DNA from: an uncultured Verrucomicrobia subdivision 3 bacterium
Lineage (GTDB): Bacteria; Verrucomicrobiota; Verrucomicrobiia; Limisphaerales; UBA11358
Length of the DNA stretch: 51,043 bases
Assembly (NCBI GenBank): GCA_903820285.1
Contig: CAIJGS010000303.1
Location: 1 to 51,043 of the forward strand
Direction: 5' to 3'
Below the pieces are notes generated by a model, which was not told the origin of the DNA, did no database searches, and was given only the letters and a program-made list of their open reading frames with translations. This document shows positions 43,516 through 47,332 of this stretch, piece after piece. The stretch's first letter is position 1. Each line of letters begins with the position of its first letter. The position numbers and the translations under genes are program-made.

Positions 43516-43869
43516 TCAAAGCACCCACTTGCCAATCTTCGCCACCGTTATCAAATCACGAATGCGCACCGGCCGCAGCCCCGCCGCCACCTCCGGACTT
43601 TGGCGGCGCCGAAACGGCCAGCTAACCAGCCACCACACAAAAGCCAGTGGCGCATAAATCGGCAGCCCTTCCGGCCCGAAATAATCACCCGCCCGAAAGG
43701 CCGCCAGATCCACCCCGAATTTTTCACTGAAGTCCCGGATAAACTCACAACCGTCCTCGCCATCCAGTCCCACATCGCCATAAATGGTCGATTCCTCGGT
43801 CAGACAGCCACGGTCATAACCGGTGAATTCCACCACAAAATCCATCACCTGCTCATCAAGGGCATTCAT
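43516..43869 (-). CDS. DUF1493 family protein (acyl-carrier-like fold)
   Basis: A 117-residue acidic protein. 'TIYGDVGLDGEDGCEFIRDFSEKFGVDLAAF' closely follows the DUF1493 pattern (D-GLDGDDA-EF---F---F-VDL), which resembles acyl-carrier proteins but lacks the Ser for phosphopantetheine. 'VRIRDLITVAKIGKWVL' at the C-terminus is also typical. In enteric members the family is poorly understood; function here unknown. A hydrophobic stretch 'LPIYAPLAFVWWLVSW' (about 69-84) may touch the membrane. The gene stands alone, 97 bases before the amidase gene, with a possible promoter upstream. Confidence 0.8.
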   Translation of the reverse strand: MNALDEQVMDFVVEFTGYDRGCLTEESTIYGDVGLDGEDGCEFIRDFSEKFGVDLAAFRAGDYFGPEGLPIYAPLAFVWWLVSWPFRRRQSPEVAAGLRPVRIRDLITVAKIGKWVL

Positions 43870-43899
43870 AAGGGGGTCATTGATAATAACATCTACTCC

Positions 43900-43917
43900 G
43901 AATAATTATTCTGTCAA
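43900..43917 (-). promoter_or_regulatory. Possible promoter with palindrome upstream of the DUF1493 gene
   Basis: On the - strand a perfect -35 TTGACA (43912-43917) is directly followed by a 12-bp perfect palindrome GAATAATTATTC (43900-43911). No clear -10 is placed at the ideal distance; 'TAGATG' or 'TATTAT' lie further down. The palindrome in the spacer could be an operator. Confidence 0.35.
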
Positions 43918-44016
43918 ATGCGAAATGCAACGAAACGCCCCGCCAAATGAATCCGTTCCAGAGTTGGTAAATAGTAGAAATATTTGTCCCCATTGGCCGA
44001 TCCGCTCAGCCCCCCG

Positions 44017-44060
44017 TAAAAACAATAAGTCCCTGCCCAACCTTGCGGTCAGACAGGGAC
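44017..44060 (-). terminator. Rho-independent terminator of the structured RNA
   Basis: On the - strand, GTCCCTG (44054-44060) pairs with CAGGGAC (44029-44035); the inner part closes as ACC-GCAA-GGT, and the stem is followed by TTATTGTTTTTA (44017-44028). The T run is only present on the - strand, which fixes the direction of transcription of the region. Confidence 0.8.
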
Positions 44061-44611
44061 AAATGGGGGATGGGAGCTCGCCACACTCTCTTTCCCGTAC
44101 CAGCATTTGGCGCACGCCCTTGCGGGGGCTGCTGGTTTCCCGACGCCATTCTCCACGGCAAGCGGAGTTACCGGCCTCGTAGCAGGGCCGTCCAGTACCT
44201 TGCGGCAGCTGGATTTTGAGTGAGGCTTTTCAGCTCGCTTCGGCTGGTGGTTGCGCCACCGGCCTGCAAACCAGGACAAGACACGCCTGCGATACGGTTC
44301 GCGTCTTGACCAATTGGTTCCCGGTCAGCCACCGCTTTTGACGGTGCGTTCGCCCGGAACCACGGGTCTCGCCTCTTCTCTCTCAAGTTGCTTTTTTCTC
44401 ACAGTCCAGCGGTGTCGTTTTTAACATCGCCGGCGCTCGGAAGTTTTTCACGCCGCCTGCCGAGCCGCGTGGCCTTCCCGATGCGTCCGCTCCTTTTGTC
44501 CACCTTTCGGCGATTTTCGTTGGGCGGTTTCCGGTTTATTGAAACCCGCCAGAGTCGTACGCACCGTGCTGATGCACAGTAGCAACTGTTCACCCTCTGG
44601 GTGACTGCGAT

Positions 44612-44668
44612 TCATCCGGAACCGAAACTGTCCCGGATTACTTGACTCGGTTTGAAACGGTTTCTCAT
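44612..44668 (-). CDS. Possible 18-codon peptide within the structured RNA
   Basis: On the - strand a GGAGG (44673-44677) lies four bases before an ATG that opens a frame of 18 codons (MRNRFKPSQVIRDSFGSG) ending in TGA at 44612. The ribosome-binding site is among the best in the window, but the peptide is short and the sequence is also part of the ATCCGG/CCGGAT stem. A translated leader peptide is possible; chance is not excluded. Confidence 0.25.
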   Translation of the reverse strand: MRNRFKPSQVIRDSFGSG

Positions 44669-44889
44669 CGTTCCTCCCCGCCAAGTCCCTCATTCGCATT
44701 GTGACGGTGCGCGAACACCGCCAGAGGAACTGGTGAATTCTGCCTCGCCGAAACTTTCGCTCCGGTGATGAGGAGCCGGATCAACCAGCCTGATCCGACC
44801 TTTCCCCAGTCGCCTGGGATTATCCTTGAAACGGGCAGCTCATCTTTCGACTACCACCACCCGCCCCGTTCTTTCAATGAACTGTAATT

Positions 44890-44917
44890 ACTATAACACG
44901 GATTGAAAATCTGCCCA
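44890..44917 (-). promoter_or_regulatory. Possible promoter of the structured RNA
   Basis: On the - strand TGGGCA (44912-44917, four of six matches to the -35 consensus) is followed after 16 bases by TATAGT (44890-44895, five of six matches to the -10). Transcription would start near 44883, just before the first stems. Confidence 0.45.
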
Positions 44918-44935
44918 TCATTTGATGTGCACAGC

Positions 44936-45106
44936 TTGTTCACCGAAAACCGCCCGCACCCCGCCGGTGAATAAATCATTAACCCCAATAAAATCAACCC
45001 ATTCGCCCCGCCCGCCGCCCGGATTATTCACCACCCCCACCGCCGCCCAACCGCCCCGGTGAATAACTTGATTGGCTGAAAAAACTGGTTCCCCTGCTGT
45101 GAATGA
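44936..45106. other. Cluster of DnaA-box-like nonamers
   Basis: Three exact copies of TTATTCACC lie at 44966-44974 (-), 45024-45032 (+) and 45058-45066 (-), one base off the DnaA box TTATNCACA. TCATTCACA (45098-45106, -) is also one base off, and TTGTTCACC (44936-44944, +) two bases off. An AT-rich stretch follows near 45198-45250, and recF lies 1.1 kb to the right. Genes mostly point away from the site on either side. Against an origin: by eye the + strand stays C-rich across both dcw and recF, so GC skew does not change sign here, and dnaA and dnaN are not present. Confidence 0.35.
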
Positions 45107-45154
45107 TCAACCCGCCTGGCAAAAATCAAAACGCTCGAAGCCGACATTTCTTCT

Positions 45155-45181
45155 CCCTCTCCTCGCCAAACGAGGAGAGGG
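45155..45181. repeat. Dispersed-type palindrome (CCCTCTCC...GGAGAGGG)
   Basis: A perfect 11-bp stem CCCTCTCCTCG (45155-45165) / CGAGGAGAGGG (45171-45181) with a 5-base loop is followed by CCGGGGTGAGG. The 'CCCTCTCC..GGAGAGGGCCGGGGTGAGG' layout recalls short repeats scattered between genes in many bacteria. No T run follows on either strand, so a terminator is unlikely. Confidence 0.5.
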
Positions 45182-45486
45182 CCGGGGTGAGGATCCGAGA
45201 TTTGTACATTCTAGGTGAATATTTTAACATCATATGAATGAATCATTTCCTCCGACTTGCCCCAAGTTCAACTGCACCCGCCGCCAGCGCAAAACCAACT
45301 CGGCGGACCGCGGCTGTGTCGCAAACCAGCCGCAGCAACGCGGCCAGTCATAAATCATAGCGACTTGCCAAAACAAGTAATATTGAGATCGTTGCTGTTT
45401 CAGATATTTCCCAATGTTTGTCTCCCACCACCTCAACGTCGCTTTTACACTTTTGCCCCCCACCCGCCCGAGCTTATCATCGCCCC

Positions 45487-45834: not shown

Positions 45835-46246
45835 TCATTGTCGCCTGCCTAAAAATTCACGCCTCAACGCCCCACCTCCTCCGTCCACTCCGCCGTACAA
45901 TCGCCTCTTCTTCGTCATTGCATGTTGGGCATTGTGGCCGTCCGCAAGGACTGTTGGATGCTTTCAACCCAGCCACCTAGCCGAGCCAAAACGCTGGACC
46001 CGTTTCCCCCACTCCACGGAGGGCATGGCGAGCCTCAAAACGCCGAGCCGCTAAGGACGGGGAGCATCGCCGAGCCGCCCCTTGGAATCTCTGCTTCCCC
46101 CCTCAGAGAATCTCTGCGTTCTCAGCGACTCCGCGTTCAATCCCCGGTCATTGGATGTTGGGCGTTCAATGTTGGATGTTGGATGTTTCCCCAATTGCTT
46201 TCAAAAAAACTCGCGCCCCGCCTCGCCAAACTCCATTTTCTACGGA
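45835..46246. other. Intergenic region before recF
   Basis: No protein or RNA gene is supported here. The left half is C-rich and featureless. The right half holds the short repeats listed separately (46111-46188). Frames that run in from upstream to recF consist of repeat-derived, low-quality sequence. Confidence 0.5.
46111..46188. repeat. Short degenerate repeats upstream of recF
   Basis: Two patterns stand next to each other. 'TCTCTGCGTTCTCAGCGAC' (46111-46129) with 'CTCCGCGTTCAA' recalls a 'CTCTGCG..CTCAGCG.CTCCGCGGT' sequence I associate with many environmental bacterial genomes. From about 46150 to 46188 the motif GATGTTGG or a close variant (ATGTTGGGCGTTCA, ATGTTGGATGTTGG) recurs every 9-17 bases. 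Copy number elsewhere in the genome cannot be seen from here. Confidence 0.4.
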
Positions 46247-47332
46247 ATGCATCTGGCTCATCTGCGTCTCCGTGACTTCCGCAATTACCCGCGGTTGGAC
46301 GTCGATTTTGCGCCCGGCTTCCACGTCCTCCTCGGCGACAACGCCCAAGGCAAGACCAACATCCTCGAAGCCATCTACCTCATGGCCACCCTCCGCTCCT
46401 TTCGCGGCGTCGGCGGCGCCCAGATGATCCGGCACGGCGCCAAAGGCTACTTTGTCGGCGGCAAAATCATCGGCCAGGGCGAACGCGAAATCAAAATGTA
46501 CTGGTCCAGCCGCGAACGGAACCTCGCCCTCGACGGCCAGCCCGTAAAACGCCTCATGGAATATTTCGGCACCCTGCGCACCGTCGTCTTTTGCACCGAA
46601 GACCTCCAGCTCATCAAAGGCACCGCCCGCGCCCGCCGCCGCTTTCTCGACCTCCTCCTCGCCCAGACCCAGCCCGGCTACCTGCCCCTCCTCCAGCGCT
46701 ACATGCACTGCGTCCGCGCCCGCAACGCCATCCTCAAACAGCGCCTGCCCGATGAAGCCGCCCTCGACAGCTTCTCCCAGGAACTCGTCAAGCTCGGCAA
46801 CGAAATCATCCGCGCCCGCCGCGAGCTCATCCCCAAATTCTCCCCGCTCGCCCGCCTCGCCTACCGTCGCGTCTCGAATGATGCCGAGGAACTCCGCATT
46901 GATTATCTGCCCAGTGTCAAAAACGATTTCGCCGTCGAACTCGCCCAGTCCCGCGCCCGGGAACGCAGTTTCCGCGCCACCCTCGTCGGCCCCCATCGCG
47001 ACGACCTTCAGCTTCTGCAAAATGAGAAATCCGCCGCCCAGTTTGGCAGCGAAGGCCAGAAACGCACCCTCGCCATCGCCCTCAAAATGGCCCAGGCCGA
47101 ATTCCTCGCCGGCATCCACGGCTCTCCGCCCATCCTCCTCATCGACGACGTCATGGGCGAACTCGATGTCAAACGCCGCAGCGGCCTCCTCCCCCTGCTC
47201 GAGCAAGCCCGCCGCAGCAGCGGTCAAGTCTTCATGACCTGCACCGAAGAAAACTGGCCCCGCGAACTCGGCCAATCCCTCCACCGCTGGCAAGTCCACG
47301 CCGGCAACCTCACGCCCAACCCGGCAAAATAG
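46247..47332 (+). CDS. recF: DNA replication and repair protein RecF
   Basis: SMC-like ATPase that helps load RecA at gaps with RecO and RecR. The N-terminus 'MHLAHLRLRDFRNYPRLDVDF' and Walker A GDNAQGKTN (residues 30-38) are typical; 'RRFLDLLLAQTQPGYLPLLQRY' and 'RATLVGPHRDDLQLL' follow, then the signature region 'GSEGQKRTLAIALKMAQAEF' and Walker B 'PILLIDDVMGELD'. The 361-residue length is normal. The ATG at 46247 is chosen because the sequence upstream is repeat-derived; the frame itself is open back to 46082. It is not flanked by dnaA, dnaN or gyrB, in contrast to many bacteria. Codon use is very C-rich on the coding strand. Confidence 0.96.
   Translation: MHLAHLRLRDFRNYPRLDVDFAPGFHVLLGDNAQGKTNILEAIYLMATLRSFRGVGGAQMIRHGAKGYFVGGKIIGQGEREIKMYWSSRERNLALDGQPVKRLMEYFGTLRTVVFCTEDLQLIKGTARARRRFLDLLLAQTQPGYLPLLQRYMHCVRARNAILKQRLPDEAALDSFSQELVKLGNEIIRARRELIPKFSPLARLAYRRVSNDAEELRIDYLPSVKNDFAVELAQSRARERSFRATLVGPHRDDLQLLQNEKSAAQFGSEGQKRTLAIALKMAQAEFLAGIHGSPPILLIDDVMGELDVKRRSGLLPLLEQARRSSGQVFMTCTEENWPRELGQSLHRWQVHAGNLTPNPAK

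Follow-up and report, generated by a model that had tools for sequence, protein, structure and literature searches.

A member of the MISL RNA family with conserved predicted transcript ends and a boxA-like leader in an uncultured Verrucomicrobia subdivision 3 bacterium

The locus and its RNA family

The window analysed here is a stretch of 51,043 nucleotides of DNA from an uncultured Verrucomicrobia subdivision 3 bacterium (contig CAIJGS010000303.1 of assembly GCA_903820285.1). Within it, genes for a DUF1493 protein and a TfoX_N protein flank an interval in which an earlier note, made from the sequence alone, had placed a large folded stand-alone RNA of unassigned class, encoded on the minus strand with its own promoter and terminator (Table 1). 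The TfoX_N neighbour has relatives at ten loci, the nearest (93% identity) labelled Verrucomicrobia subdivision 3; five of the ten are labelled Verrucomicrobia subdivision 3 or Limisphaerales, and three weaker ones are Pseudomonadota by record title. The gap between the RNA and the TfoX_N gene contains a short inverted repeat (45152-45195) which by eye is like a dispersed intergenic repeat, and just past the TfoX_N gene a protein with a RecF/RecN/SMC N-terminal domain is encoded (46136-47332; PF02463, E 6e-17).

At its curated thresholds, Rfam 15 has a single match anywhere in the window, to the MISL family (RF03079), on the minus strand from 44825 to 44073. The match scores 618.3 bits against a cut-off of 274.6 (cmscan, E 1.6e-187) and covers the full consensus structure, model positions 1-751 of 751, untruncated. 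The locus is a newly found member of a known RNA class, sharing sequence and secondary structure with MISL across the whole 751-position model, and the label 'unassigned' was wrong. A permissive search of 43850-45250 gave MISL again, together with two matches under their respective cut-offs (E 0.19 and 0.84); a genome-wide search of the bacterium's own genome found one MISL match in total. The large bacterial RNAs OLE, GOLLD and ROOL are separate families, none of which was listed in 43850-45250 even at E up to 1. As the earlier note had judged from missing landmarks, these three, RNase P, tmRNA and group I and II introns have no Rfam or ARAGORN match here, and ARAGORN found no tRNA or tmRNA in the window.

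The MISL class was reportedly first described by Weinberg and colleagues in 2017. Literature searches naming MISL found no function for it; among the matches listed, one paper concerned an MISL RNA, a preprint in which such an RNA serves as a probing example (Ribonanza, PMC10925082). Three other matches were Salmonella papers, by their titles on a similarly named gene.

The large folded RNA gene on the minus strand was confirmed by its predicted fold, as well as by the conservation in relatives described below. For the minus strand of 44024-44884 the predicted folding energy is -373.4 kcal/mol (z -6.9; none of 20 shuffles did as well). The plus strand of the same interval has z -2.2, and 1 of its 20 shuffles did as well. 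A count by eye puts GNRA-type loops (GCGA, GCAA, GAAA), also noticed earlier, on at least six stems. Among open reading frames of at least 40 amino acids, the longest wholly inside the interval has 83, in keeping with the earlier finding of no credible protein gene, and a plus-strand frame of 119 amino acids (43823-44182) enters from outside; a coding gene was rejected on ORF length. A phage or plasmid DNA element was likewise rejected, as distant blastn at E 1e-5 against 50,697 phage records and 72,556 plasmid records found no match.

Table 1. Features of the MISL locus (positions in the window) and MISL-bearing phage contigs
Feature	Position	Strand	Basis or partner
Predicted primary transcript, ~861 nt	44024..44884	-	promoter and terminator positions, conserved in relatives
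Sigma-70-type promoter; -35 TGGGCA (44917-44912), -10 TATAGT (44895-44890), 16 nt between	44890..44917	-	site scan, relatives
boxA-like leader element, AGTTCATTGAAA	44872..44883	-	leader comparison, matrix
Predicted 5' leader hairpin, sequence variable, closing just ahead of the Rfam start	44828..44867	-	per-sequence and window folds
MISL RNA core (RF03079 model 1-751)	44073..44825	-	cmscan, 618.3 bits, E 1.6e-187
PK3 5' strand GCUGGU, loop region of long hairpin	44784..44789	-	pairs with 44568-44573
PK1 5' strand AGUUGC	44582..44587	-	pairs with 44386-44391
PK3 3' strand AUCAGC	44568..44573	-	pairs with 44784-44789
PK2 5' strand CUGUGA	44399..44404	-	pairs with hairpin loop 44287-44292
PK1 3' strand GCAACU	44386..44391	-	pairs with 44582-44587
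PK2 3' strand UCGCAG, within hairpin loop	44287..44292	-	pairs with 44399-44404
Intrinsic terminator, hairpin and T-rich tail	44019..44060	-	site scan, covariation
L142 (1-813) and L125 (1-476), MISL sequence joined upstream of ssRNA phage genomes	IMG/VR 3300034668_001230 and 3300034676_001488		

Consensus structure and three further long-range helices

The main alignment (MAFFT) holds 48 of the 59 MISL loci at a mean identity of 0.67 and a minimum of 0.52. The other 11 served as held-out rows, namely L017 and L030 (truncated where their contigs end, and closely related to aligned rows) and the divergent loci L051-L059. When the Rfam structure was mapped onto the window, 7123 of 8038 cells across the 48 sequences were paired (88.6%), and 121 of 172 pairs had changed on both sides. 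Six slid control structures reached 36.8-40.8% paired with 52-68 pairs double-changed, a comparison that by its nature tends to favour any structure built from related sequences. When column pairs were tested for covariation against a tree-based null, only four had E<0.05, three among 164 testable pairs of the structure and one in the terminator. As the tree-based test (10 simulated alignments) has low power per pair, a helix-level test was used.

A scan for stacked pairs brought out three long-range helices, PK1 to PK3, that are absent from the structure line printed by cmscan. Pseudoknots have no place in a covariance model, so the helices may already be present in the published MISL drawing. 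PK3 had five pairs in the scan and was later extended to 44789-44784 with 44573-44568. None of the pairs in the three helices reached E<0.05 in the tree-based test. Counting pairs among Rfam-unpaired columns that change on both sides in at least two sequences, PK2 has four and PK1 two, whereas a helix with at least two such pairs never arose when entire Rfam-unpaired columns were permuted 300 times. PK1 and PK2 are therefore supported against this null; PK3 falls outside it because one of its columns is paired in the Rfam structure. Helices of at least five pairs numbered 13 against 0.32 expected, and 10 of the 13 had no double change; such counts are inflated by conserved stretches, so that only the double-change measure was used. 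Two further sets of correlated columns (44431-44434 with 44255-44258, and 44838 with 44256) resemble a split between two clades and were set aside.

At fixed columns, all six pairs form in 7 (PK1), 8 (PK2) and 10 (PK3) of the 11 held-out loci, and in 5, 6 and 8, respectively, of the nine divergent ones. Pairing in a shifted register was seen for PK1 in L052 and L053 (8 and 9 pairs) and for PK2 in L057 and L059 (8 pairs); PK1 is partial in L057 and L059, with at most five pairs in a row, and PK2 in L051 forms five of six pairs at fixed columns, with at most four in a row. When strands were swapped between sequences, six pairs of PK1 formed in 1787 of 3422 combinations versus 53/59 within one sequence; the corresponding values are 1376/3194 versus 46/55 for PK2 and 1578/3364 versus 39/58 for PK3, which is the weakest of the three by this control.

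Predicted transcript ends and the leader element

The gene extends beyond the RF03079 match by ~59 nt at its 5' end and ~49 nt at its 3' end, and these flanks are conserved in relatives at both ends. A scan for sites found two promoter-like sequences (0.6 expected) and two terminator-like ones (2.1 expected); on these counts the scan alone is weak, and conservation in relatives carries the case. The terminator-like hairpin has 14 pairs (44060-44029, minus strand). One of its pairs covaries at E 5e-4 in the tree-based test, and of the 12 pairs that the scan placed in this helix, 7 have both partners changed in at least two sequences. Upstream of the boxA-like site described below, within 14 nt, a TANNNT sequence occurs in all 29 order-level loci that bear the site, versus 31 of 522 control windows; it precedes the leader site in 1 of 19 class-level loci (L031-L050) and 5 of 9 divergent loci. 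The terminator is thus conserved, as is the -10-like promoter within the order, and the TANNNT pattern does not account for the promoter of the class-level family. The ends proposed in the earlier note, about 44883 to 44017, agree with this comparative evidence. A conserved GTGSAYA element (like GTGCATATCAAT) lies 35-70 nt upstream of the boxA-like site in L001-L030 and upstream of the promoter; it is present in 26/29 order-level, 2/19 class-level and 0/9 divergent loci, and is possibly an operator or UP element.

Near the start of the predicted transcript, ~60 nt ahead of the Rfam start, a GTTC-N-TTGA-N-A-GAAC site precedes the variable leader hairpin. Across six genomes scanned, GTTCNTTGAAAGAAC occurred once per genome, always just upstream of MISL. 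A boxA-like 12-mer is found in 11 leaders of 16S rRNA from the phylum (TGCTCTTTGAAA in four, variants in seven), 135-229 nt before the 16S start; retrieval of 16S was limited, as RF00177 located the gene in 5 of 17 genomes and a search by 16S start pattern did so in 7 of 16. In one genome (G054) the 16S 12-mer is TGTTCATTGAAA, near the MISL site of the window, though the MISL leader of that genome is GTTCAATGAAAG. The MISL site of the window and the 16S boxA of G001, a genome of the same genus, disagree at 3 of 12 positions.

A 12-position boxA matrix built on these 11 leaders, with its threshold at the 99% level of mononucleotide shuffles (10.14), was applied to 58 of the 59 MISL loci (L017 left out). 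The threshold was exceeded by 39/58 MISL leaders, that is, not in every locus, against 11/1141 background windows. Placement is fixed more widely: in 53 of 58 loci the best-scoring site is 55-65 nt ahead of the Rfam start. It lies further upstream, ahead of longer leader segments, in L052, L053, L057 and L059, and elsewhere in L028, which scores over the threshold. In the 19 leaders under the threshold the best site, scoring 5.3-10.1, is still 57-62 nt before the Rfam start; 17 of them come from a single family, the class-level one, in which the usual leader, CGTTCCTTGATA, reaches 10.1, just short of 10.14.

BoxA binds NusB and S10 and supports antitermination on rRNA (PMC4807359); it has also been reported ahead of CRISPR arrays (PMC7862264), which are protected by the rrn antitermination complex (PMC12691694). 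From the presence of boxA in 16S and CRISPR leaders, and from the likeness of the MISL site to the 16S boxA, we infer that MISL would use the Nus system: it may be an rRNA-style unit, a large trans-acting RNA with its own boxA through which a Nus antitermination complex would take the polymerase. We put this forward tentatively, as a reading by analogy that stops a little short of probable.

A plain 5' stabilising hairpin closed by GTTC and GAAC, with no boxA function, has a comparable claim on the same leader. The site is palindromic (GTTC...GAAC) in most loci and could form a small hairpin; per-sequence folding predicts one in the majority of order-level leaders, and in L055-L057 and L059, which have lost or altered the palindrome, a shifted hairpin is still predicted. 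The folding pattern was unmatched in L017, L023 and L050, and matched elsewhere in L028 and L053. Against a plain hairpin, none is predicted at the site in L014, L020 and L051, all of which retain a high-scoring boxA-like core, or in nearly all of L031-L050, and the leader resembles those of 16S rRNA.

Distribution, mode of action and comparison with other RNAs

Of 59 genomes of relatives, 38 have MISL over the cut-off, as do 28 of 387 sampled from the phylum at large (the bacterium's own genome counted in each); both searches ran with stricter filters, which leaves absences uncertain. Beyond the phylum, where distribution was judged on 14 control genomes, none of the 14 had a match. Two genomes (G213 and G388) each carry two full-length copies.

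MISL sequence also occurs joined to genomes of single-stranded RNA phages. Five pattern scans of viral contigs gave 35, 113 (80 of them listed), 44, 62 and 14 stretches, and among the matches listed only L125 and L142 proved to be MISL. In L125 (2347 b) the similarity runs from the first base to ~476 by blastn and to 567 by cmscan (254.5 bits, just under the cut-off), followed by an RNA-phage maturation protein (PF03863, E 7.1e-28). In L142 (5357 b) MISL occupies 62-813 (cmscan, 543 bits), with blastn similarity stopping at 806; downstream are a protein that resembles a maturation protein (PF03863, E 7e-5, short of the Pfam cut-off), whose nearest other relatives are ~57% identical, and an RNA replicase (PF03431, E 3e-42). 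The MISL part thus lies upstream of the phage genes in the same sense in two different phage genomes. The two MISL parts have their closest counterparts in separate cellular clades (86% to L041, 81% to L005), and the L142 junction falls at a short GGGAAAG that fits MISL. The 79 other RNA-phage loci which with L142 make up the best 80 of 214 had no MISL by nhmmer, and none of 40 RNA-phage loci scanned had any Rfam RNA over its cut-off. The plainest reading is that the fusions are library chimeras of an abundant RNA. They could also show that RNA phages recombine with MISL RNA inside the cell, which we consider very unlikely. Whether chimera or recombinant, the MISL sequence in these samples probably existed as RNA, because such phages have RNA genomes.

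Neighbouring genes bear on how the RNA would act. In 16 loci the same protein is encoded downstream on the same strand (PALP family by Pfam in the two tested, within 1.5 kb), and in 15 of the 16 its stop-to-stop frame starts within ~250 nt of the RNA end, as might be expected if MISL were a cis-regulatory, riboswitch-like leader of the neighbouring gene. The downstream gene is not the same throughout, however: neighbours differ by clade, both at the present locus and in another clade, where 13 class-level loci share a divergently encoded upstream protein (DEAD/helicase-C by Pfam in the one tested). A terminator-like hairpin stands between the RNA and the downstream gene, and length and fold go well past those of riboswitches. 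The clade-dependent neighbours, together with the hairpin, therefore argue against cis-regulation, which was rejected as highly improbable, and differing neighbours argue for a trans-acting RNA. The least tenable reading is the undescribed large-RNA class of the earlier note, which had seen here its strongest candidate for a new element: the Infernal search of Rfam which it named as a check, and by which a significant known-class match would remove novelty, gave the full-length MISL match (E 1.6e-187), leaving in favour only the want of a published MISL function in our searches and a probability that is practically nil.

A stand-alone MISL RNA gene (RF03079) is very probably the best explanation of the locus, and the steps that follow are predicted. 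A transcript of ~861 nt would start near 44884 and end near 44024, and fold into a compact pseudoknotted core. Its first nucleotides would hold a boxA-like element that would recruit the NusB/S10 antitermination complex, as in rRNA leaders, and antitermination would let RNA polymerase finish a long untranslated RNA without Rho termination. The product would act in trans and not as a cis-regulator, its part being structural or catalytic in a machine made of RNA with protein or of RNA only; we infer that MISL RNA is a candidate for such a role. If it is indeed an rRNA-style unit, high expression would be implied, and co-transcriptional folding would perhaps be helped, as for rRNA. The class itself is already known, and what is useful is the anatomy added to it, along with the boxA hypothesis: with candidate ends, three extra helices and a candidate boxA, constructs for cryo-EM, for probing and for deletions can be better designed.

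With OLE, GOLLD and ROOL, MISL shares the character of a large ornate bacterial RNA. Those three families are described as having poorly understood functions and as forming RNA-only multimers (PMC12286853). What MISL has in common with 16S leaders and CRISPR arrays is a boxA-like sequence close to where a long untranslated RNA begins, a parallel which on the MISL side is one of sequence resemblance and position. MISL offers a direct test case for whether Nus antitermination serves a large structured RNA besides rRNA and CRISPR arrays.
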